Below are positions 5,307 to 23,396 of a stretch of 64,000 nucleotides of DNA, piece after piece (the stretch's first letter is position 1; each line of letters begins with the position of its first letter). Position numbers and translations under genes: made by a program. Where the stretch lies: positions 1-64,000 of the forward strand of contig NZ_JAEG01000001.1 in the NCBI RefSeq assembly GCF_000518785.1. The letters run 5' to 3'. The notes below the pieces were generated by a model. That model was given only the letters and a program-made list of their open reading frames with translations. It searched no databases and had not been told where the DNA came from. The DNA comes from Paenirhizobium selenitireducens ATCC BAA-1503 (GTDB taxonomy: Bacteria > Pseudomonadota > Alphaproteobacteria > Rhizobiales > Rhizobiaceae).

Positions 5307-7139
5307 CTAATGTTTGTATCTTGCGATGAGGTTCCGAATACCGCTGCTGCGCTCCTTCATCTTCTTCTCGAGAGAAATCCTAAGGCTTTGGATACAGCGG
5401 ATGTCTGCCGCGACTTCTCGGACGCAGCTAAGTTCGTTCAGTAGGTTGTCGGGAAGGGCGCTTATATTGAAACCCTTACCTTGAGCTTCGCGTTTATGAG
5501 CTCCGAGTGCTCTGCGATCATAAGCTTCCTGTCGTTCCGATAGCGTACGCTGTCTGTCGATGTATGAGGTTATCAACCGTCGGTCATCCTGATGGTCGGC
5601 GGTTCTAACATTGGGGCGATCGGAGAATTCGTTGAGAATGATGCGAAGGCTCTTATGCTCGATTATCCCTGCCTTGGGAAATGTCAGGCCGTTTTCGTAA
5701 ACCGGTTTTCCTAAAATGGACCTGATCAAAGCGATGTCCGACAGATTTTCGTTCAAGAGTCCTTCCAGCTTCCCTAGTTTTGGAATTACCCATTCTTGGA
5801 GAATGACGCCTTCGTTTAACTGGAAAACCATTCGCAATACGTTGTCTACGCGCCCGCGCTCCACCAAAGCTTCCACAATATCGAAAACTTCTGATGGCGG
5901 ACTATTGGAGATGAAAAGCGCCGCAAAATACTCTTGGAAAGACCGATGGATGAAAGTCGTGTAGATTCCATCTCGCTGTAAAAGGCACACGGTGACCATT
6001 AGGTCTTTGAGAAATGCATCACTATCCGCATCGATGTTTGAGAGGGCGAAAGCGGCTTTAAGATCCTCGATAAGCTGGAACTGTAAAAAGCTAAACCGCT
6101 CCTGAAGATAGGAGATGAAGCAAAAGGCCGCGAGCACCTGTCGGAACTGCTCTACGTCGAGCCTAGACTCGATAGTCCGCGAAAATGCGCCCTTTATGAA
6201 GTCGTGCTTGTGGAATAGCGTTTGGTAGGCCTGTTCGTAGAACACGTGCATCTTGCTCGGAACGGTGGCGAACTCGCTGTACGTCAGCATCATGAGCGTC
6301 GCGAGGAGGGGAATCGAAAGAAATTCTTCATGGTTCTCGAAGAACTGCTCGGTCATCGTTCCAATAAATGCGGATTTGATATCGCCGTCATAGTTGAGCT
6401 TGGACAACATCAGCGTCGTCTGCTCGCGCGTCATGGGGAGAAGCTTGGCCACCGTGAAGGCCTCCCATGGTAGATAAAAGTCATCCGGCCGGGTCGAAAG
6501 AAGAACGGGTGTCTCGGGATACCTGTAGGCGAGGTCCAAGATTTCCGCAGCGTAACGAGTGCGATCGGTTAGAGCTATTTCGTCGATGCCATCGAGGTAA
6601 ATTATGAACTTTCCACTCCCCATGCCGAACCTGAGGTGCTCTTCAGTGAAACCCGGCAGGTGATCGGCGACCTGTTTCACTAGGTTGGCGATCAGGGATT
6701 TCGTGTTGTCTAAGTGGAGGTGTCGCAACTCAAAAAGTATCGGAATATAATCTGTTTCATAGAGTATCGTATGGCGAAGCAGATGCCTTACAAACAGCGT
6801 CTTTCCCAGTCCAGCCGTGCCCTCGATTATAAAACGTTTTCCGAGAGCGAGTTGGGCAAAAAAGTCTTCACCACGGAATACCTCTTCTCCCGATTTGATG
6901 CGTACTGGCACATAGTTGTGCTCAAAACTTATCGCTTCGTGGCGGTTAATCAGGGTTTTAAATTTGGAGTATCTGGCGATTGTCTCAGACAGATAGCTTG
7001 AGAAGCCGCGACCAAACCGCACCTTGTATTTGGCGATCTGATCCTTTGTAACATTTCCGACGGACGAGAAAAACGACTCGACCAAGTCTGCGGCGGCATG
7101 TCCGGCGATTTCATTCACATTGATTTCTACTTCAGACAC
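5307..7139 (-). CDS. NACHT-domain STAND NTPase, probable antiphage protein
   Basis: A 610-aa protein starting at a GTG preceded by GGAGGG at good spacing; the longer frame to 7268 has no such site. Residues about 107-114 are the Walker A motif GTAGLGKT, and 178-187 the Walker B FIIYLDGIDE. A sensor-1-like STRPDDFYLP and the family motif HRSFQEYFAALF follow. The N-terminal about 100 residues are a helical domain without a recognisable nuclease or protease effector, and the C-terminal about 180 residues would be the sensor part. Bacterial NACHT proteins are known single-gene antiphage systems; defence is inferred from family and island context. Base composition is lower in G+C than the neighbours, which suggests separate acquisition. 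Confidence 0.85.
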   Translation of the reverse strand: MSEVEINVNEIAGHAAADLVESFFSSVGNVTKDQIAKYKVRFGRGFSSYLSETIARYSKFKTLINRHEAISFEHNYVPVRIKSGEEVFRGEDFFAQLALGKRFIIEGTAGLGKTLFVRHLLRHTILYETDYIPILFELRHLHLDNTKSLIANLVKQVADHLPGFTEEHLRFGMGSGKFIIYLDGIDEIALTDRTRYAAEILDLAYRYPETPVLLSTRPDDFYLPWEAFTVAKLLPMTREQTTLMLSKLNYDGDIKSAFIGTMTEQFFENHEEFLSIPLLATLMMLTYSEFATVPSKMHVFYEQAYQTLFHKHDFIKGAFSRTIESRLDVEQFRQVLAAFCFISYLQERFSFLQFQLIEDLKAAFALSNIDADSDAFLKDLMVTVCLLQRDGIYTTFIHRSFQEYFAALFISNSPPSEVFDIVEALVERGRVDNVLRMVFQLNEGVILQEWVIPKLGKLEGLLNENLSDIALIRSILGKPVYENGLTFPKAGIIEHKSLRIILNEFSDRPNVRTADHQDDRRLITSYIDRQRTLSERQEAYDRRALGAHKREAQGKGFNISALPDNLLNELSCVREVAADIRCIQSLRISLEKKMKERSSGIRNLIARYKH

Positions 7140-7469
7140 GATCCCTCCGGAACATGAAGCTAACTTCCCGCGAAAAATGGCCTGCCACGTGCAGGTGCGG
7201 CGGACCGCGTAGCTCTCCGGCCACAATGACGGCCGCGGCTGCAACAGTTGGCCTGCCGACGGAATCATTTTGAACGCGTCTTATACGCGTAGATAACACC
7301 CATGACGACAATCTCGCCGAGATTGTTTTCCGGCGATATTAGGCTCTCGTCAACCCAATAGACTGTTGATTTTGCGCTGAGAACTGACCCGGGATTGCGG
7401 GAAGTTCTCACCGAGATTTGGCTCTGACTCACATATGCTGCTGGTGCGGTCGAGACTTTCGGTGATTCA

Positions 7470-7933
7470 TTGGGGGATCAGCGGATGCAGCATCGGTTTC
7501 AGCGTGCGTGCCTCGCGCCGGACGGCTTCGCAGTGGATTCTATCAAGATTGTAGGCGAGATCGTCGATATTCTCTTGAGATCGCGCTCTCCCGCGGGAGC
7601 TTGTTCTGCCTGCGGACGACAGCGACGCGTTCAAAGCCGATATCTGCGATGGCCGACAGACCTGCCCCTCGGTGGACGGCGCGTGGACTCACAGTGGTGG
7701 CGCTCCGATGTTGGTGTGACGCTGTCCTTTGCGGTCGCTGCATCTTCCGCGAACAGTTCGAACACGGCTTCCTGGCTCGGTATGGTCGTCGCACCCAGCG
7801 GTTCGAGACGATCGTCCACCATCTTGGTCTGGCGCTCGGCGGCAGACCTGCGGCAGCCTTCGCCAATCGTCTGATGATGCCTGTCAGCAGTGAAGTGAGG
7901 TCGCGAACCGGATATTACGAGTTGGTGTTCTAG
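7470..7933 (+). pseudogene. ISL3-family transposase fragment, frameshifted and truncated
   Basis: The first part (to about 7690) encodes a zinc-ribbon-like GACSACGRQRRVQSRYLR and then DLPLGGRRV, typical of the ISL3 transposase N-terminus. The match continues in another frame with CWCDAVLCGRCIFREQFEHG and RRTQRFETIVHHLGLALGG. A frameshift near 7690 and loss of the catalytic domain after about 7890 make this a relic. The rest of the 7140-8044 interval contains no other supported gene. Confidence 0.75.
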
Positions 7934-8044
7934 ACCATCGACCTGCGCACCAAATTGGCGTCTTGGCGGCTTCCGTACGGACATCGACTATTTTGCCCCC
8001 GCGGATTAGCGACTGGTCACGAAAGATAGAACACGCGACGGTGT

Positions 8045-9562
8045 TCAAGCTCGGTCGAACAGTCCTCTGAACTCGTTATCGTCATGATATCGGATCTTCC
8101 GCACCCACGCCGGCCGCTTCCCTTGTCTGAGCAGGATCATGTGTTCCGACGACGAGGTCTTGCCCTCGCTCCATGACCGGGTCACGTAGTGCGCATCGGT
8201 CTTGCCGATCGAGCGGGCAATGAGACTTGCCGTTTCCACATCGTTGACGCCGAACACCTGAAGCACGGCGGCATTCGACAGGAAGGTGCCGGCGCGTTGC
8301 CCATAGGTGGCACGCAGCTGGTGGATGTCCTGGAGGATCGGCCAGAGCTGAACACCATAGCCGGCCATCAGCCCCATGGCACGTTCGACGGGCGCCAGGT
8401 GACCGAGAGCGGTGAACTCGTCGAGCAGATACAGCACGGGCCGGGCAGGGGCGGCAGGATCGCGTGCCATCTCGGTGAGGCTTTGGGTGACCAGCAGTCG
8501 CAGCCATCTGGAATAGGTGGAGAGCCGATCGGGCGGCAGGACGAGGAAGACTGTGGCATTGTTGCGCTTCAGATCGGCGAAGCGGAAGTCTGAGCGACTA
8601 AGCACGGCGGTCATGCGCGGACTGTCGAGGAAATGGGTGTGGCGCTGCGCGGCCGACAAGACGCCCGCCGCTTCCCGGTCGGACTTGCCGAGGTGACGAT
8701 TGGCAGCGCGCGCGATTAGCCCGCCGGCCCCGTCCAAGGCCTGCATTCTCAGAAGCAGGTTCGCGAACTTCTCCGGGGAAAGCGTCAGATGGTCCCGCAG
8801 CGTTCCGAGGTCCCGTCGCCCCGGCGGCTCCGCGACGATGGTAAAGAGGATCAGTCCGGCAATGAGCGCCCTGGCCTCTTCGTTCCAGTGCGCCTCACCA
8901 GCCATGCCCGGCTCGTCGAACACCAGCGCATCGGCGAGCGTGTTGGCGTCTTCGGCGATATCGAGGCTGTCAGGCTTCAGTCCATCGAGGGGATTGAAGG
9001 CGGACGAGTGTTTGCCCGTGACGCCAAACGGATCGAGGACATGGACCGGACCGAACCGTTCGCGGGCGCGACCGGTGATCCTGGCATTCTCGCCCTTCGG
9101 GTCGATGCAGATCACGGAGCGGTCGGCGGTGAGCAGATTGGGGATGATGGTACCGACACCCTTGCCCGTTCTGGTCGGTGCGATGGTCATCAGATGCGCC
9201 GGCCCGTCATAGCGCAATAGCTTGGCTGTTGCCGGATCGCGTCCGATCAGCAGGCCATCGTCTTTGGCCGACAGGGTTTGCAGGTCTTTCTTCGTCGCCC
9301 AGCGCGCCGAGCCGAAGACGGCCGAGATTTGCGCTTTGCTGAAAAACGCCGAGAAGAAGCCGCCGATCCCAAGCGTCACGGGAAGATACTTGGCGACAAC
9401 GTGCACGACGTGGCTGATCTGTCCATGTTCAATTCCGCCGATTAGGTGGATCAGGAAATTCACCAGCAGCATCACGATGGAAAAGGCAGCGCCGAAGAGG
9501 AGGCACCCCACCGCGATGACGGGAGCCATCAGCATGGACTTGAGCAGACGCGCAACCGTCAT
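8045..9562 (-). CDS. traG: TraG/VirD4-type conjugation coupling protein
   Basis: A 505-aa inner-membrane ATPase that would link the relaxase-DNA complex to a type IV secretion channel. Two hydrophobic N-terminal segments (about residues 10-40 and 58-75) anchor it. Walker A is APTRTGKGVG at 128-137 and Walker B lies in VLYLLDEFTALG. The family motif NLLTADRSVICIDPKGENA is also present. It is shorter than many TraG proteins (about 600 aa or more), so the C-terminus may be trimmed, but the core ATPase is complete. It overlaps traD by an ATGA junction and is transcribed away from the oriT. Confidence 0.93.
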   Translation of the reverse strand: MTVARLLKSMLMAPVIAVGCLLFGAAFSIVMLLVNFLIHLIGGIEHGQISHVVHVVAKYLPVTLGIGGFFSAFFSKAQISAVFGSARWATKKDLQTLSAKDDGLLIGRDPATAKLLRYDGPAHLMTIAPTRTGKGVGTIIPNLLTADRSVICIDPKGENARITGRARERFGPVHVLDPFGVTGKHSSAFNPLDGLKPDSLDIAEDANTLADALVFDEPGMAGEAHWNEEARALIAGLILFTIVAEPPGRRDLGTLRDHLTLSPEKFANLLLRMQALDGAGGLIARAANRHLGKSDREAAGVLSAAQRHTHFLDSPRMTAVLSRSDFRFADLKRNNATVFLVLPPDRLSTYSRWLRLLVTQSLTEMARDPAAPARPVLYLLDEFTALGHLAPVERAMGLMAGYGVQLWPILQDIHQLRATYGQRAGTFLSNAAVLQVFGVNDVETASLIARSIGKTDAHYVTRSWSEGKTSSSEHMILLRQGKRPAWVRKIRYHDDNEFRGLFDRA

Positions 9563-14078: not shown

Positions 14079-16007
14079 TCACGACATGAGTGCTTCACTC
14101 TCGCTGACAACAGTACCTGAGGGTGCTGAACCGCGAAACTCAGATGCACGTCGCCCTCGACGCAAAGGCAGCGGCAGGGCTAGGTATAGATCGCCTTCCT
14201 GGATAATGAATTCGCGGCTAACTAGCATTGACAACGCTTGACCTACCTCTGAGGCTGAGTAAGAGTTGCCAATTTGATTGGTAACTTGGTCAAATATATT
14301 GCTGGCTGATCTCGGTCTGTCGACGCAGAATAAGAACGCGCATGCCAACAAGTCCGTATAAAAATAGCTCTTTATTTTTATCGATCGGCCATCGACGATT
14401 CGCACTCCATTCGACAGTTTTTGGTATACTAATGTAGGGAGTGGTTCTATCTGCCAGCGCTCACGCCAGTCTTTGACCGCAGTCGTCAACGAACTGACAG
14501 ATGACTTGTCGACGGCATCAATGAGCTCCGCCTCAAAAAAATAAGCAGCACGATGGACATCGACTGTAGCTGGATATGCGTATTTATAGCTATCGTGAGG
14601 TCTAAGGCCATGAAAATGGCGACCCTCTGTCGCGTCGCGAAAGTAAGGGCTAAATCGTTCAATCCATATCGGGCCGATGCCTCGCGGCGGCGGCAAAAAA
14701 TGTAGCTTCTGAATCAGATCTCGCTGATCTTCATAGTCGCGCCGACTCTCGCCAGGAAAACCAAAGATCAGGTTCCAAAACGCATGCACACCGTAGTATG
14801 CAAACCAGCGGAGGGAATTGACATTCTGAATACCAGTGATGCCCTTGTCCATGAGCTTCAATACATGTGAGCTGAAGCTTTCTATTCCGGGCTGAACGTG
14901 AGTTATGCATCCCTCCGAAAGGGCCTGAATCTCATCTCTACTTAGATTTGCTTTGATCTCAAAAAAAAGATCATAATCCATTTCTTTGGATTTCATGTAT
15001 TGGGTAAGCTGCTTCGTTTGTTCACGGCCAATAATGTTGTCGACCGCATTGATGCGAGCGATCCGGTGGCGTTCTGAAAGAACTTCTATGTCCTCGATTA
15101 TACGTTGGGTGCTCTTTGATCTGAAACGCATCCCTAAACCGTTCAGGCCACAAAATTTACAGTGATGCTTGTCTCCCCACCAGCAGCCACGCGAACCTTC
15201 AATCAGCAACGTGATTGGGTTCGTCTGTTGCTTATAGGAAGCCGGAACTACTTCGAGTGACTTAAAATACTCTGAGTAATCCGGGATTGGTAGGTCGTCC
15301 ATGCGGCCTTCGAAGGTTGCCCTCCGATGCGCCTGTGCTCCAGAGGCATCCCTTAGGATGATTCCGTCTAGGGAGGGGATCTCGTGACCGGCAAGTAGTG
15401 CACTCAGAAGAGGGGAGAAAACGTGATCTGCCTCCCCGGAAACTGCAACGTCAATCCACTGCACGCCTTCGACGTAAGCGCGTCCCATTTCGCCGTCGAA
15501 ATTTGATCCACCGAAGACGGTCTGGAGCGAGGGCCTGAGTGATTTAAGCCGGCGAGCAAGTGCGATGCCAGCAACATTCTGTTCAAATGTTGAGGTAAAG
15601 CAAACAACCTCATAGCCCGCAACCACGATACGCCGAGCTTCCTCGTCAAGGAATTCAGGTATCAGGGTTTCGCGGACTTCAAGTAGCGCGGCCAAGTCAG
15701 TTCGCCCGCGGTCCGAAACTAGGTCAAGCGCTTCTGCGTACCGCTTTACAAACTCTTCCGGCGGCGGGACGCTATCGCCGAAAGCGGCAGCTGAGAACAT
15801 CCATTCGCCTAGGAGGGGCCCACGATAGCTCGATAAAAAATTATAGAGCCGTGGCTCCATGATTTTGGCTAAGCTAAGATTAAGGTAGTGGCAATCGACT
15901 TTGATCCCATCTCGTTCGGCAATTGCTTTGAGCAAGCCGGCCTGGATAGACGGATACTGCACAGTACCGAACGGCATTACGACGAATGCGACTTTCGCTT
16001 GGTCCAT
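14079..16007 (-). CDS. RiPP maturation radical SAM protein, B12-dependent C-methyltransferase type
   Basis: A 642-aa protein. Residues 1 to about 215 have the look of a cobalamin-binding (B12) domain (VAFVVMPFGTVQYPSIQAGL; GYEVVCFTSTFEQN; TVFGGSNFDGEMG). Residues about 260-500 are a radical SAM domain whose iron-sulfur ligands are Cys275, Cys283 and Cys286 in RGCWWGDKHHCKFCGLNG. This CX7CX2C with the WWG/KHHC context is the signature of ribosomal-peptide maturation radical SAM protein 1 (TIGR03975). Known relatives methylate unactivated carbons of peptides. It is the last gene of a four-gene leftward operon, one base after the subtilase stop. Lower G+C than the neighbours suggests transfer. 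The target is inferred to be the 61-aa peptide upstream. Confidence 0.9.
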   Translation of the reverse strand: MDQAKVAFVVMPFGTVQYPSIQAGLLKAIAERDGIKVDCHYLNLSLAKIMEPRLYNFLSSYRGPLLGEWMFSAAAFGDSVPPPEEFVKRYAEALDLVSDRGRTDLAALLEVRETLIPEFLDEEARRIVVAGYEVVCFTSTFEQNVAGIALARRLKSLRPSLQTVFGGSNFDGEMGRAYVEGVQWIDVAVSGEADHVFSPLLSALLAGHEIPSLDGIILRDASGAQAHRRATFEGRMDDLPIPDYSEYFKSLEVVPASYKQQTNPITLLIEGSRGCWWGDKHHCKFCGLNGLGMRFRSKSTQRIIEDIEVLSERHRIARINAVDNIIGREQTKQLTQYMKSKEMDYDLFFEIKANLSRDEIQALSEGCITHVQPGIESFSSHVLKLMDKGITGIQNVNSLRWFAYYGVHAFWNLIFGFPGESRRDYEDQRDLIQKLHFLPPPRGIGPIWIERFSPYFRDATEGRHFHGLRPHDSYKYAYPATVDVHRAAYFFEAELIDAVDKSSVSSLTTAVKDWRERWQIEPLPTLVYQKLSNGVRIVDGRSIKIKSYFYTDLLACAFLFCVDRPRSASNIFDQVTNQIGNSYSASEVGQALSMLVSREFIIQEGDLYLALPLPLRRGRRASEFRGSAPSGTVVSESEALMS

Positions 16008-16008
16008 T

Positions 16009-17352
16009 CTAAACTCCCGATCCGGCTAGTTTGCGGGCGTCGATGATACCAGCTCCCTGTTCATCGATCCCAATGCCTGGAAGCCTAGTGCAGGATTCTA
16101 ACACTGCGGTGCGTAACTCTGCGGCGGACCAGCTTGGATTTCTCTGCAAGGCCAAAGCGGCAACCCCAGCAACAATCGGCGCCGCAAAACTCGTCCCTGG
16201 AATGGCAACAGCTTCTATTTGTCCGTTCCGGTCGGTCACTTGAATGCCACCACCCGGAGCAACCAGATCAGGCTTATTTGTGCCACCTACCGTTGGCCCT
16301 CGTGACGACTTTTGGTGAACCTGTGTACCCAGCCTGTCAGTCGATCCAACACTGATGACATGTGCAGCATCCGCCGGCGATGTCAAAGTTCCGGGCTCAG
16401 GGCCTGAATTGCCCACACTCTTAAATGTGAGCATTCCTTTCTTAAAAGCGGCGTCTACTGTCTGCGCCCAGATTGATTGGCCATCTGGCTTGGCCTTACT
16501 CTGTCCCCAGCTGAGGTTGGCAATCTTCGCACCGTCAATGCATGCTTGCTCTAACGCTGCAGCTACGCTCGACCCGTCCGCAACAAGTGGCGCGATCTTA
16601 TAGTTCCAAATAGTAGCTTTTGGTGCGACGCCTTTCAAGGAGCGCCCGTTAGGTGCTTCACTTCCGTCTCCTGCGAGAATGGCCGCTACCTTGGTACCGT
16701 GTTCCTTTCCCAACGAGTCGGCCAGTCCAGTCCCGCCCCACGCAGTGTCGGAAAAGTTCCCTTTTTGGATTACTCTACCGACGAGGCCAGGGTAAAGCGT
16801 ATCAATTTCACCATCGAGTATAGCAACAACTTGACCGGCGCCATCGGCGCCTAGTCCGAAATCGGCATCGTCTAATTGAATGGCATGTCTAGCGGCGTCT
16901 AACTCTAGTTCGCCTGCGCTATTGAGCCATGCAAGCGACTTATGGTCAGCGACCTCTGAAAGTATTTCAAGTAAATCTGGTTCGGTCACATTAAATGTGA
17001 CCGAAGTTGTAAACCTCAAAATGTTTCTAATCCGGAGGGATTTGTTTTCTATTACATTAATTGTGGCCGCCAGATTTTTACGCGTCTCTGCCTCCAATTC
17101 GCTGATGTAACTGGACCAATGTGCGTCACTGGACGTTATTGTCTCACCGAGTATAGATGGTCGCGTTACCTGCAAGGTAACCGGAAGCGCGAAGCCTTCA
17201 AGACCGGTCTCCCTAGCGACTGCAATAGCGCCCGCAAGTCCGTCGTCAATGCGAGCAGACAACTCGCTAGACCAACCGGCAGACTTTTCTAGATAACTTC
17301 TAGCCGCACCTAGGTCGGTCAAAAGCTGTGCTGTAAGTGCCCAGTTTGCCAT
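16009..17352 (-). CDS. Subtilisin-like (S8) serine peptidase of the RiPP operon
   Basis: A 447-aa peptidase with an intact catalytic triad: Asp180 (VVAILDGEID), His218 (KEHGTKVAA) and Ser388 (IPGTSFAAPIVAGVAAL), plus the oxyanion Asn315 (SVGNSGPEP). There is no signal peptide, so it probably acts in the cytoplasm. Residues 1 to about 160 form an N-terminal region that may contain its own propeptide-like fold. It starts six bases after the stop of the 79-aa I9-like gene and ends one base before the radical SAM gene. Its likely job is leader removal from the modified peptide; the alternative is a role unrelated to a RiPP, such as proteolytic defence. Confidence 0.9.
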   Translation of the reverse strand: MANWALTAQLLTDLGAARSYLEKSAGWSSELSARIDDGLAGAIAVARETGLEGFALPVTLQVTRPSILGETITSSDAHWSSYISELEAETRKNLAATINVIENKSLRIRNILRFTTSVTFNVTEPDLLEILSEVADHKSLAWLNSAGELELDAARHAIQLDDADFGLGADGAGQVVAILDGEIDTLYPGLVGRVIQKGNFSDTAWGGTGLADSLGKEHGTKVAAILAGDGSEAPNGRSLKGVAPKATIWNYKIAPLVADGSSVAAALEQACIDGAKIANLSWGQSKAKPDGQSIWAQTVDAAFKKGMLTFKSVGNSGPEPGTLTSPADAAHVISVGSTDRLGTQVHQKSSRGPTVGGTNKPDLVAPGGGIQVTDRNGQIEAVAIPGTSFAAPIVAGVAALALQRNPSWSAAELRTAVLESCTRLPGIGIDEQGAGIIDARKLAGSGV

Positions 17353-17358
17353 ACGCGG

Positions 17359-17598
17359 TCATCGCCCGAATTGCTCCAATTCGCCCGGATCGTCCATATC
17401 AATGCGCGCGCTCGGAAAGTTCACCTTTAGGTCGTCAAACAGAGAATTCGGTAATTGAGCAGACAATGTATTGGTAAGCTTAAAAGCGCGCCTAACGCTG
17501 CCATGTTGCCTAATGTACGCCTTTAGCCGGTCCAGCTCTTCAGATGCGGTGTCCGGTAGAGTTACCACGAAAGAAATCAGTTCGTGATCTGGGGGCAT
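17359..17598 (-). CDS. Stand-alone I9-like protease propeptide/inhibitor
   Basis: A 79-aa protein. The order of strand (ISFVVTLP), helix (SEELDRLKAYIRQHG), strands (VRRAFKLTNTLSAQLP), helix (NSLFDDLKVNF) and final strand (SARIDMDD) matches the inhibitor-I9 fold, which is normally the N-terminal propeptide of subtilases. Here it is a separate gene directly upstream of a subtilase. It probably folds or inhibits that peptidase in trans. AGGG lies upstream of the start at slightly long spacing, 12 bases after the peptide gene. Assignment rests on pattern only, since I9 sequences are poorly conserved. Confidence 0.65.
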   Translation of the reverse strand: MPPDHELISFVVTLPDTASEELDRLKAYIRQHGSVRRAFKLTNTLSAQLPNSLFDDLKVNFPSARIDMDDPGELEQFGR

Positions 17599-17610
17599 GA
17601 ACTCACACCC

Positions 17611-17796
17611 TTACGTGATTCCAACAGTCACCCCAACTTCTACGCCTTCTAGGCCAGCAGCTTGCCTCAAATCCTTGACATGCTGGATGAGATCAGGGGC
17701 CTCAATTTTGATAAACGGTTCCTCGCCAGCGTTCTCTACGACCTCCATATTTTCCAGGGGTATCTTCACACCGGCGGACTGCGAAACAGTTGGCAT
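17611..17796 (-). CDS. Candidate RiPP precursor peptide
   Basis: A 61-aa peptide with a textbook ribosome site (GGAGG, five bases before ATG) and no signal peptide. The N-terminal about 45 residues are acidic and helix-prone (PFIKIEAPDLIQHVKDLRQ), like a leader. The C-terminus GLEGVEVGVTVGIT alternates beta-branched Val/Thr/Ile with Gly/Glu, a plausible core for C-methylation at beta carbons by the radical SAM enzyme three genes downstream. There is no Cys, so no lanthionine or sactionine chemistry is expected. It is the first gene of the operon. I do not recognise a named precursor family, so the assignment rests on size, position and composition. Confidence 0.6.
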   Translation of the reverse strand: MPTVSQSAGVKIPLENMEVVENAGEEPFIKIEAPDLIQHVKDLRQAAGLEGVEVGVTVGIT

Positions 17797-17824
17797 GTCA
17801 TCCTCCTATAGTTGTGATATTTGA

Positions 17825-17853
17825 AAGATGCTCCTCCGCAAGGGATGAGTCAA
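17825..17853 (-). promoter_or_regulatory. Putative sigma70-type promoter of the RiPP operon
   Basis: On the minus strand a TTGACT -35 (17853-17848) is separated by 17 bases from a weak CATCTT -10 (17830-17825), about 30 bases before the precursor start. Spacing is ideal, but the -10 is poor, so confidence is moderate. Confidence 0.45.
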
Positions 17854-20148: not shown

Positions 20149-20178
20149 TTGACGGCCCGTTAAGATTGTGGTTATTGT
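20149..20178 (+). promoter_or_regulatory. Putative promoter of the subtilase-tyrosinase operon
   Basis: TTGACG (20149-20154) and TATTGT (20173-20178) are 18 bases apart, or 17 using TTATTG. The -10 lies about 29 bases before the chosen subtilase start at 20207, which argues against the longer frame beginning at 20168 because that start would fall within the promoter. Confidence 0.5.
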
Positions 20179-20206
20179 CGTGCGCAACTTCGAGATGGGG
20201 GCAGTC

Positions 20207-21955
20207 ATGAATGACTTTTCGAAGATGTTGCGCATCATTTTCATATACGTCTTCTGCACAGGAACCGCTTCTGCGGATGCGGATATCGACGATCAAATGG
20301 CCAGCACCGGAAAAGCCCAGGTAATCATCCAGGTCAATCCTTCGGAACTCTTGACCCCTCAACCGTCAGTAATCGAGGCCCTTCGGGAAGTGTCCAAACT
20401 TCTTACCGATTCGGACAAATCAAGTCTTCGTTCGATAGGAACCCAGCCCTTGTTCACGGGAATAATTAGTAAGGATAGCTATCTAAATCTCGCACATAAG
20501 CCCGGTATTACAGTAGTCGCCGATACGCCATCACCTGCGCTGTCTTCAGTGGCCAGAAGCCTGGTTGGATTGAAGGATGTTGAGGATGACATAGCGGCCA
20601 TCGCGGTAGATGGCGATCCTGCTTCCAGTACCAGCGGCTATGCGGTTGCGGTAATCGATAGCGGCTTTGATATCGATCATCCATTTATAGAAGGTGCAGT
20701 TCTTCGTCAGGCATGCTTTTCGACGAGCAAGTCCCCAAGCTACAAGGTTAAGTCTCTATGCCCGAACGGCTATGAGATCCAAACTGCAGGAAATGCGGCG
20801 TCACCGTGCGCAACACTTGCGATTGCGTGCGATCATGGAACCCATGTGGCGGGATTGATATCGGGAAAGGGCGGCAGAAATGGAGGAGCGGCGTTCGATG
20901 GAATTGCGCCAAGGACTCCGCTGATCCTGATAACATCGTTCACCGAGTTTGATGATGCAGGAACCTGCATCATGATGGGCTTCACGTCGACGCCCTGTAT
21001 TGGCAGCTTTCTGTCGGATCAGATTGAGGCCCTTGAGTATGTCCGCCTCCTATCGACGGAGCATTTCATCGCGGCGGTGAACTTCAGTCAAGGTATGGTC
21101 GTGAAGGGGGAGTGCTCAAAGCACATCCTGGGACCTGTGCTTCTATCGCTCCTCGACGCCGGTGTCCCAACTGTGGCCGCCGCGGGAAACAACGGAAAGC
21201 CCTTTAGCTTACTTCCGGCATGCATCTCCACTTCGGTAAATGTAGCTGCATCCGACCAGTCCCAAAATTTTGCCGGAAAGTTCCCGACACCTTGGAGGGG
21301 CGGTTCAAATTACTCAGAAGAGGTCGACATAGTTGCGCCAGGTGTGAACATCATATCCGCAGCTCCTCATGGAAAGTATATTGAGCTAACCGGAACATCG
21401 ATGTCGGTGCCTATCGTGAGCGGTACGCTGGCAAGAATTCGCAATCTGATTTCCCCGCCAACCGGACTGCCAGGGCACGGTTTCGAGATGGCCGAGTTGT
21501 CAGTTACTCTTTTGACGTCAACGGACAACAAGATCACCATCGGGAAAACTGCTGCCGGAGTGGATATTGTGAAGCCGCTACTCGACGTGTCCGTGGTTGA
21601 GACCGCGGCCGCCGCCTATCTTAAGGCTGGACAAGATCAGATAGCTCTACCTGCTGGCGCGGATCTGGAACCCAACACGCAAGTGGAGTGGGGATGGGTG
21701 CCAGCCAATCCCGGAGGAAATCGGAGCATCGTGCTCAGCAGCAAGCCATTCACCAACAGCCAAATCAAGGGCCTCTCCGAGCTGATTGCGAAAGAAATGG
21801 GGCTCACCAGTTTTCAGGTTCTTCCTCAGAATGATCCGACGAAGGTGATTGTCGATTCTGAGGTGCCGATCGACAAGACCTATCTCGAAACACTGACAAA
21901 GCAGCTGGGCAATGGTGGTCGTGCTTACGACGACGCAATTTCAACAATTCCATGA
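20207..21955 (+). CDS. Exported subtilisin-like (S8) serine peptidase
   Basis: A 582-aa secreted peptidase. A signal peptide (MLRIIFIYVFCTGTASA, cleaved near Ala) is followed by an I9-like propeptide region (AQVIIQVNPSEL onward). The S8 domain has Asp151 (VAVIDSGFDID), His210 (CDHGTHVAGLISG) and Ser398 (LTGTSMSVPIVSG). Several Cys in the catalytic domain suggest disulfides, consistent with export. The last about 100 residues are an extra domain (EWGWVPANPGG; FQVLPQNDPTK) of unknown role. GATGGGGG precedes the start. Ten bases separate it from the tyrosinase gene, which has a very similar ribosome site, so the two form an operon; the peptidase may process the tyrosinase or a shared substrate. 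Confidence 0.9.
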   Translation: MNDFSKMLRIIFIYVFCTGTASADADIDDQMASTGKAQVIIQVNPSELLTPQPSVIEALREVSKLLTDSDKSSLRSIGTQPLFTGIISKDSYLNLAHKPGITVVADTPSPALSSVARSLVGLKDVEDDIAAIAVDGDPASSTSGYAVAVIDSGFDIDHPFIEGAVLRQACFSTSKSPSYKVKSLCPNGYEIQTAGNAASPCATLAIACDHGTHVAGLISGKGGRNGGAAFDGIAPRTPLILITSFTEFDDAGTCIMMGFTSTPCIGSFLSDQIEALEYVRLLSTEHFIAAVNFSQGMVVKGECSKHILGPVLLSLLDAGVPTVAAAGNNGKPFSLLPACISTSVNVAASDQSQNFAGKFPTPWRGGSNYSEEVDIVAPGVNIISAAPHGKYIELTGTSMSVPIVSGTLARIRNLISPPTGLPGHGFEMAELSVTLLTSTDNKITIGKTAAGVDIVKPLLDVSVVETAAAAYLKAGQDQIALPAGADLEPNTQVEWGWVPANPGGNRSIVLSSKPFTNSQIKGLSELIAKEMGLTSFQVLPQNDPTKVIVDSEVPIDKTYLETLTKQLGNGGRAYDDAISTIP

Positions 21956-21965
21956 GGGGGGCAGC

Positions 21966-23396
21966 ATGGGTGAATGTTCGGACAGCAGGCGACTGAATAC
22001 AATCAGCGCGATAACGACGCGTCGCCGTTTCGTGGGAGGGGCAACCGCCTCCGTGGCGTCAGTTCCGTTTCTGTCATCATTTCTTGAGGTTCTGGCTGCG
22101 GCCCCAGCAAACGCGGTAGTGCGGAAAGCCGCGCATAAGCTCAAAGTCCATGACACCGAAGTCCAGCTTCTCCGGGACGCAGTAAAGATCTTGAAGGAGA
22201 ATGATGGCATTGGAGGATGGAGTTTCCTGGCCACCTATCACAAGGACTTCTGCGGGGTCATGTCTAGCAAGGAAATTCACTTTGGCTGGTATTTCCTACC
22301 TTGGCATAGAGTTTATCTCGCGGTCATGGAGCGCCACCTTCAGGCCGCGGTTTCAGAGCCGAGCTTGGCAATCCCTTACTGGGACTGGTATGCCTCACCG
22401 GCAATACCGGAAATTTTCATGGGGTCGGATAACCCACTGAATGACGGTTCACGACGCCCTAGCGGACCAGAAATGGGGCCTTTCGATCTTGGAGTGCTAA
22501 CGGAGGCAGACCTGGTCGATGACGAGGATTTCAAGGTGTTCGGTGGAGGAGACCCCGAAAGGGAAGGGGGCGGAGCAATCGAGTTTGGTCCACATGGTGG
22601 CGGCCATGTATTTGTCGGCGGCAATCTCGGAGCGTTTGCAACCGCAGCACTAGACCCTCTTTTCATGGCGCATCACGGCAATATCGATCGGCTCTGGGAG
22701 GTATGGCGCAATGCTGGAACCACACCACGCGCGGAACCGGTAGATGAGGGTTGGGATGCGCGACCGTACGTCTTTATTGGCGCTGACGGCACAGAGATCA
22801 AGAGAATTAGTAGTGAGACAATATCGACTGTTGGTCTTGGATACCAATATGACGATTTGAAGGTGAAGCCTGCCGAAGTCGTTGTTGCCGGCGGGGCAGA
22901 AATTGGAGTCCCGCTTGGAGCAGGGGAAGAACTTAGCCTAGAACTCACCTCGTCTGGGCCAGCCGGCCAACCTATAAATCTGTCAGGTGCAGGGGTACTC
23001 TTTAAGCTGACACTGCCAGCAGATGACGGTATTGCGTCGGTATTGAGCAGCGCGCCGACGTCTTCATTGACCAAGGGGCGAAAGCTGAAAGTTAGAATTC
23101 GCGAACTGGAAGTTCCAGACGATGCCGTTCAAATCCGTGTTTATCTCGATCCGAAAAAACCGATCGCGGATCTGCATTCGGATGAGGCATCCTTCGCTGG
23201 ATCGATAAATCTCGTGCCAATGAATGGCTCCGGAACGGGCGCTAGGATTATTGCCAACGTTGATATCACCAGGGCGGCCGATGGCGTCGATTTGCCGATA
23301 TCTGAGATGCCTGTACTGATTGTTCCGTATACAAGAGATGGCAAGCCGCGAGGCGGTTCAATGAGTATAGTGGGGGTTCAGTTGATAATAAAATAG
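21966..23396 (+). CDS. Tat-exported tyrosinase/polyphenol oxidase
   Basis: A 476-aa type-3 copper enzyme. A twin-arginine signal (TTRRRFVGGATASVASVPFL) directs it to the periplasm. CuA ligands are likely His92, His105 and His114 (ATYHKDFC; IHFGWYFLPWHR), and CuB ligands His210, His214 and His236/237 (GPHGGGHVF; FMAHHGNIDRLW). Cys96 lies four residues after His92, as in plant catechol oxidases where the Cys forms a thioether with the second CuA His. The C-terminal about 170 residues, after GLGYQYDDL, resemble the plant-type polyphenol oxidase tail. It oxidises phenols to quinones; the physiological substrate is unknown. Start chosen by GAGGGGGG just upstream. Co-transcribed with a subtilase. 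Confidence 0.92.
   Translation: MGECSDSRRLNTISAITTRRRFVGGATASVASVPFLSSFLEVLAAAPANAVVRKAAHKLKVHDTEVQLLRDAVKILKENDGIGGWSFLATYHKDFCGVMSSKEIHFGWYFLPWHRVYLAVMERHLQAAVSEPSLAIPYWDWYASPAIPEIFMGSDNPLNDGSRRPSGPEMGPFDLGVLTEADLVDDEDFKVFGGGDPEREGGGAIEFGPHGGGHVFVGGNLGAFATAALDPLFMAHHGNIDRLWEVWRNAGTTPRAEPVDEGWDARPYVFIGADGTEIKRISSETISTVGLGYQYDDLKVKPAEVVVAGGAEIGVPLGAGEELSLELTSSGPAGQPINLSGAGVLFKLTLPADDGIASVLSSAPTSSLTKGRKLKVRIRELEVPDDAVQIRVYLDPKKPIADLHSDEASFAGSINLVPMNGSGTGARIIANVDITRAADGVDLPISEMPVLIVPYTRDGKPRGGSMSIVGVQLIIK

Follow-up and report, generated by a model that had tools for sequence, protein, structure and literature searches.

The first 64,000 nucleotides of contig NZ_JAEG01000001.1 of Paenirhizobium selenitireducens ATCC BAA-1503, referred to here as the window, contain a compact run of four minus-strand genes that probably form a small cassette for the production of a ribosomally synthesized and post-translationally modified peptide (RiPP). 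Analysis of open reading frames (ORFs) reproduces to the base the arrangement given in a preliminary description of this DNA, with products of 61, 79, 447 and 642 residues separated by intergenic gaps of 12, 6 and 1 nt. The features of the run, with the evidence used for each, are:

17802 to 17807, minus strand: Shine-Dalgarno sequence AGGAGG, 5 nt ahead of the ATG of the 61-residue gene (sequence)
17611 to 17796, minus strand: 61-residue candidate precursor peptide with the tail GLEGVEVGVTVGIT (ORF, codon use, Shine-Dalgarno sequence)
17359 to 17598, minus strand: 79-residue stand-alone protein, predicted to be subtilisin-propeptide-like (I9-like) (AlphaFold2 model, Foldseek)
16009 to 17352, minus strand: 447-residue S8 (subtilisin-like) peptidase with the triad D180/H218/S388 (PF00082, residues)
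14079 to 16007, minus strand: 642-residue B12-type radical S-adenosylmethionine (SAM) RiPP maturase with a CX7CX2C motif (TIGR03975, motif)
14178 to 14432, minus strand: C-terminal winged-helix domain of the maturase, predicted to have a topology like that of a RiPP precursor recognition element (RRE) (AlphaFold2 on a 36-sequence alignment)

The four genes differ in composition from their surroundings, with GC contents of 50.4-52.9% against 61.1% for the window, and GC contents at third codon positions of 48-54% against 74.9% in the neighbouring traA. The run was probably acquired, as it sits between Ti-type conjugation genes (a relaxase and a coupling protein) and a 203-residue integrase ORF, directly upstream, that holds the catalytic part only; the wider region contains both conjugation genes and integrases. 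A promoter scan found three candidates where 3.8 were expected, none of them upstream of the run.

The 642-residue product is a TIGR03975-type maturase, as had been proposed, scoring 590.5 bits against a cut-off of 281.85 and aligning residues 6-613 to positions 1-606 of the 606-position profile. It also matches PF04055 (44.4 bits) and a functionally uncharacterised PHROG (E 6.2e-99), scores below the cut-off of the Pfam B12-binding model (15.8 against 32.1 bits), and has one match in its own genome. The CX7CX2C motif, CWWGDKHHCKFC, starts at residue 275, its cysteines being Cys275, Cys283 and Cys286. According to a review (PMC11285071), PoyC carries this motif and C-beta-methylates Ile3 and Val5, Val10 and Val21 of polytheonamide, and an expressed TIGR03975 cluster has been reported in work that terms such enzymes typical of RiPP maturation (PMC12350317). 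MetH is present in the genome, which indicates that the cell uses cobalamin.

Enzymes of this type are rare in related bacteria: with the own genome counted, they occur in 7 of the 297 family genomes (protein query, E<=1e-30), in 8 of the 385 from the class and in 8 of the 398 from the phylum. The closest maturases are about 40% identical to that of the window, 42% at best, among relatives that include the best 80 of 583. For comparison we assembled 103 other TIGR03975 loci, all matching the maturase at E<1e-5: 80 from genome contigs (those best 80 of the 583 confirmed relatives), four from plasmids, 13 from family and phylum genomes and six from class genomes. Fourteen of them are shorter than 9 kb, some nearly duplicate one another, and one (G330) has its maturase split in two; individual loci are given below by L numbers. 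A quick tree of 87 rows including the window sequence, 10 of the 97 rows sought having been lost to a motif and length filter, places the window maturase in a set of 22 rows (SH-aLRT 96; 14 from Actinomycetota) outside a Nitrospirota/Nitrospinota clade, and several rows of this set are adjoined by precursor-like small genes.

The last 127 residues of the maturase, 516 to 642, modelled with AlphaFold2 on an alignment of 36 sequences (pLDDT 84.3, pTM 0.77), are predicted to fold into three strands, three helices and a wing. In VIA-align the model superposes on the RRE of TbiB1 with its bound leader (5v1v_A) with a Z of 8.1 over 79 of 88 residues at a root-mean-square deviation of 2.2, and from this model an RRE function is plausible; no Pfam match to PqqD was seen at E<=1.

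The gene at the head of the run has the appearance of a genuine one. Among ORFs of 50-90 residues starting with ATG, on both strands of the 64 kb, it alone has AGGAGG 3-16 nt upstream. Its codon score, calculated from a table of the S8 and radical SAM genes, is 0.208, compared with -0.448 and -0.306 for the other frames of the strand, and none of 2000 nucleotide shuffles matches it, with stop codons penalised both in the alternative frames and in the shuffles. Seven of the 14 residues of the tail, which includes GVEVGVTVGIT, are Val, Ile or Thr, and the short peptide with a Val/Thr/Gly-rich tail of the preliminary description is thus a real-looking gene, which its codon use and ribosome site support as translated. 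The remark that its family was not recognised also stands: the peptide matches no family in NCBIfam (E<=1), Pfam, PHROGs or the defence models, and NCBIfam contains no NHLP (proteusin) or Nif11 leader matching it at E<=1. A comparison with the N-terminus of the S8 peptidase gave a shuffle fraction of 0.027, one among several such tests.

Candidate precursors near other TIGR03975 genes can have similar tails, with Val, Ile or Thr accounting for seven of the last 14 residues at L040, six at L032 and L015, and four at L035 and L028. The L040 candidate exceeds the cut-off for a Nif11 leader (45.0 against 32.3 bits), that of L028 weakly matches NF041299, a DynW-associated RiPP peptide (15.5 against 40 bits), and the remaining candidates scanned against NCBIfam, those of L015, L035, L041 and L045 among them, reach no cut-off. 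We note that the candidate precursors of L012, L013, L015, L017, L028, L030, L032, L035, L041 and L080 share, by eye, a loose leader pattern, IT..DI..L..KL..L....E..LL, and are perhaps an undescribed precursor family.

The third gene encodes an S8 peptidase that is intact, as had been claimed, matching PF00082 with 154.4 bits against a cut-off of 21.8 and retaining D180, H218 and S388 together with N315. Judged by hydropathy alone, its start contains no hydrophobic signal-like segment. Pfam has no match for the first 165 residues; a Nostoc plasmid relative aligns across 438 columns at 33% identity, including most of this part, and the long N-terminal part may therefore not be unique. The peptidase scores 63.9 bits against the PatA model TIGR03895 (cut-off 421.05) and 24.6 bits (E 1.3e-05) against the QhpE model NF049966 (cut-off 165), in both cases well under the cut-off. 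Relatives on plasmids number 77 records, one of which covers 80% of the query, and no maturase relative adjoins the S8 gene in four plasmid neighbourhoods that were fetched (two from Tolypothrix, an unannotated one from Nostoc and one from Streptomyces canus). A search of 397 genomes of the order, limited to four scored candidates per genome, found relatives at E<=1e-20 in the own genome only. Two other assignments were rejected: as a defence-system component the peptidase matched just generic subtilase and IetS models, and recA matches of its N-terminus come from multi-copy recA constructs with each stretch below 11 bits.

The 79-residue protein had been called I9-like, a label that its sequence does not support and its predicted fold favours. 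It has no match in Pfam, PF05922 (I9) included, at E<=1, and matches two functionally uncharacterised PHROGs weakly, with E values of 0.0086 and 0.037. The best of five single-sequence AlphaFold2 models (pLDDT 71.7, the others 44.6-53.6) has the order strand-helix-strand-strand-helix-strand, and among PDB structures Foldseek ranks two subtilisin propeptides first, those of subtilisin E and BPN' (1scj_B and 1spb_P; probability 1.00, TM scores of 0.61 and 0.60, 28 and 26% identity, with a weak E of 0.048). VIA-align gives Z scores of 7.6 for the subtilisin propeptide 2z57_B, 7.3 for POIA1 and 7.1 for the EpiP chain 3qfh. A subtilisin-propeptide (I9) fold is therefore predicted from the model, and it is likelier than these scores alone would make it because the gene ends 6 nt before that of the S8 peptidase. 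In eukaryotes, S8 proteases are known to be regulated in trans by stand-alone mimics of the propeptide (PMC6993865). The protein has no similarity to the S8 N-terminus (score 26, fraction 0.44), no relatives in viral contigs and a single plasmid match, at E 5; among 40 relatives the other matches, E 0.04 at best, are stretches of about 30-60 residues in much longer frames and were read as chance.

The complete combination did not recur in the 103 loci. Using as criterion an ORF of at least 100 residues with S8 motifs near the maturase, we found one case among the 80 genome-contig loci (L045) and none in the four plasmid, 13 family or phylum, and six class loci. This single case, from Streptomyces tauricus (5602-9335), has a 100-residue precursor-like gene, a TIGR03975-type maturase and an S8 gene in a row. 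A tblastn search of the 103 loci with the window S8 gives matches in L045 (33 residues, E 0.008) and L063 (E 0.055) only, and the pairing of maturase with S8 enzyme may have arisen twice, since the window and L045 enzymes share just a 33-residue match (E 0.006 in a separate search). The corresponding search with the 79-residue protein returns a chance-level match alone (L012, E 0.76). There are no maturase relatives in viral contigs; among phages, two records of one phage have a weak, partial match. A literature search, largely at the level of titles, turned up no description of a TIGR03975 enzyme occurring together with an S8 peptidase. The type of enzyme is known, no second copy of the four-gene combination was found, and the cassette is an orphan whose precursor is unconfirmed by co-occurrence.

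Some of the comparison loci have features of their own. In 27 loci from Nitrospirota and Nitrospinota (within L048-L091) a conserved gene of about 113 residues (MSLADN.CVPCRGGVPP...), which we take to resemble a pterin-4a-carbinolamine dehydratase, lies by eye ahead of the maturase with no precursor in evidence, and the Nitrospina-type loci L053, L072, L076 and L079 have instead a conserved small gene (MHEVKVYDSSG...); the maturase of these phyla may be a lineage-wide enzyme whose substrate is not a RiPP. In Sphingomonas colocasiae (L027, 3502-8797) a radical-SAM-looking gene and two HExxH proteins accompany a TIGR03975-type maturase, with labels assigned by eye. Relatives of the L045 S8 enzyme, about 37-40% identical, are encoded on two plasmids, one of Rhizobium, where folE, purB, queE and queC surround the gene (L148, 5433-14660), and one of Mesorhizobium, where purine genes do (L150, 4936-10815); these neighbours suggest a nucleoside-peptide product.

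Starting from the gene layout, the two family memberships, the catalytic triad and the cysteine motif, we infer a substrate, sites of methylation, a cleavage, an order of steps and a role for the 79-residue protein as follows. The 61-residue peptide would be translated as a precursor, and the maturase would grip its N-terminal part through the fused domain that is modelled as RRE-like. With methylcobalamin and a SAM-derived radical, the enzyme would then methylate unactivated carbons in the GVEVGVTVGIT tail, most likely at C-beta of Val, Ile or Thr by analogy with its family, its motif and PoyC. The cytoplasmic S8 peptidase would next remove the leader. Its predicted fold and the position of its gene suggest that the 79-residue protein acts in trans on the peptidase, as a folding helper, as an inhibitor that delays the cut until modification is done, or as both. 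The product would leave by a host exporter or act inside the cell. The four genes would on this account suffice, as the preliminary description held, for making, modifying and cleaving a peptide.

We regard a compact RiPP cassette of this kind, with RRE-guided C-methylation of the 61-residue precursor, leader removal by the S8 enzyme and control in trans by the 79-residue protein, as likely, though well short of certain. It is supported by the packing of the genes, a TIGR03975 score of twice the cut-off, the CX7CX2C motif, the RRE-like domain and the intact triad, and further by the propeptide-like fold, the ribosome site and codon evidence, the tails rich in Val, Ile and Thr at some other loci (with the Nif11-leader match at L040), the place of the maturase in the tree in a set where several rows have precursor-like small genes, the arrangement at L045 and the presence of MetH. 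A more specific proposal is tentative and rather doubtful: that a subtilisin propeptide encoded by a gene of its own sets the time of leader removal, holding the S8 enzyme inactive (or helping it to fold) in trans until the Val/Thr tail has been C-methylated. The result would be a minimal four-gene route to a peptide rich in tert-leucine, with a precursor of a family unmatched in the libraries used. If true, remarkably few components would suffice to place methyl groups on unactivated carbons of a genetically encoded peptide, and the dedicated protease would have its control element encoded apart from it. The cassette would then be an example of a propeptide acting in trans in a RiPP pathway and a compact system for studying site choice by a B12 radical SAM methylase and the timing of leader cleavage.

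Several observations weigh against the cassette as proposed. Membership of TIGR03975 does not by itself prove a peptide substrate, since one survey left out, as probable false positives, the clusters that the TIGR03975 rule had picked up (PMC9426513), and the Nitrospirota members have no evident precursor in our listing of loci. The window maturase sits on a terminal branch of 1.94, which leaves its placement unsure and makes an altered substrate possible. The superposition of its C-terminal model on TbiB1 is tied in VIA-align with the DNA-binding winged helices MecI, BlaI and Fur; Foldseek gives no match at E<=0.001, and the 50 rows shown are winged-helix proteins with no recognised RRE among them. 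The model of the 79-residue protein likewise has no Foldseek match at E<=0.001, and its propeptide scores in VIA-align are level with those of other folds of similar shape. As noted in the preliminary description, neither an exporter nor an immunity gene lies inside the run, and an S8-motif gene stands beside the maturase in only one of the 103 other loci.

The peptide itself contributes further points on this side. The preliminary description named the presence of the 61-residue gene beside homologous maturases in other genomes as a check, and no second instance was found: tblastn of the peptide finds no relative at E<=1 in the 103 loci, and there are none in plasmids or viral contigs. Compared with eight other candidate precursors, chosen by eye from the loci listing and including that of L045, it has no significant similarity (lowest shuffle fraction 0.10), and some candidate tails are poor in Val, Ile and Thr, with three of 14 at L012 and L041 and one at L045. 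With the nearest maturases about 40% identical and the branch very long, the missing relatives weaken the precursor claim without refuting it. The lack of a recognised RRE in Foldseek and of relatives of the small proteins at the 103 loci slightly lowered our estimate for the cassette and slightly raised that for a decaying one.

Four other explanations were weighed. The maturase could modify a larger protein encoded elsewhere, as in a QhpD/QhpE-like protein maturation, with the S8 enzyme trimming that protein and the 61-residue product an accessory. The weak match of the peptidase to the QhpE model, together with the lack of an exporter in the run and of a conserved precursor, fits such a scheme, but the score is far under the cut-off, the run encodes no other plausible substrate, and the 61-residue gene heads the run with its strongest ribosome site; we consider it unlikely. 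Slightly less credit still is given to the view that the peptidase, the propeptide-like 79-residue protein and the 61-residue peptide are a protease module that merely lies beside the maturase on an acquired island. The first two make a self-consistent pair, the region is one of conjugation genes and integrases, and S8-motif genes are rare beside TIGR03975 genes, as described above; against this stand the 1-nt gap between the S8 and maturase genes, the uniform GC of all four, and the different S8 gene that directly follows a TIGR03975 gene at L045. That the run is a decaying acquired cassette whose function has been lost might be read from the integrase ORF upstream, limited to the catalytic part, and from the long branch of the maturase, yet four open frames, an intact triad, intact cysteines and coding-like codon use make this very unlikely. 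Least probable of all is that the maturase acts on the 79-residue protein or the S8 enzyme, both encoded in the same run, given that the residues methylated by PoyC are Val and Ile in a peptide (PMC11285071), which the Val-rich tail of the 61-residue product fits best.

Two further loci in the window deserve mention. A NACHT-domain protein (PF05729, 27.4 bits, cut-off 26.7) is encoded near the conjugation genes (5307-7268, minus strand). At 20168-23396 on the plus strand, the ORF of a second S8 peptidase with a hydrophobic start (PF00082, 72.0 bits) and the ORF of a tyrosinase-domain protein (PF00264, E 3.7e-33) share 44 nt, and the two are possibly another protease-activated oxidase or peptide-tailoring pair.

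Among known systems, the cassette resembles that of polytheonamide, whose B12 radical SAM C-methyltransferases PoyB and PoyC presumably match TIGR03975. The likeness lies in the CX7CX2C motif and in the proposed C-beta methylation of Val and Ile in a peptide, both described for PoyC (PMC11285071). The 61-residue peptide differs in having no NHLP or Nif11 leader match, and the run has no epimerase or other tailoring enzyme, with an S8 peptidase and a propeptide-like protein instead. A pheganomycin-type locus on a Streptomyces globosus plasmid (L008) has a maturase 39% identical to that of the window and annotated as a RiPP maturation radical SAM C-methyltransferase, adjoined by a short precursor annotated as of the pheganomycin family; it differs in its PGM1-related peptide ligase and dpg genes, and no S8-motif gene lies in the stretch. 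The S. tauricus locus L045 resembles the window in having the maturase followed directly by an S8 gene with a precursor-like gene ahead, whereas its precursor is a different one, it has no relative of the 79-residue protein, and its S8 enzyme matches that of the window over 33 residues. The TvgA/TvgB cyclopropylglycine RiPP shares a precursor of Val, Thr and Gly and a radical SAM enzyme that modifies Val, but has TVGG repeats, and TvgB was obtained by screening enzymes that contain up to three iron-sulfur clusters; the abstract gives no B12 dependence for it (PMC9062424).

EpiP-type subtilases and the cyanobactin protease PatA are S8 enzymes that mature RiPPs, in agreement with PDB and NCBIfam titles. 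The window peptidase resembles them in its match to the PatA model (63.9 bits), as the model of the 79-residue protein does in aligning to EpiP 3qfh; it differs in scoring far under the PatA cut-off, in having no evident signal peptide, and in that the propeptide-like part is a separate gene. Such a separation recalls POIA1, the yeast one, TgMIC5 and SUB1-ProM, small propeptide-fold proteins that regulate S8 proteases in trans (PMC6993865). The mimics named in that source are eukaryotic, whereas the 79-residue protein of the window is bacterial, and its gene adjoins that of its likely partner within a RiPP-like run.

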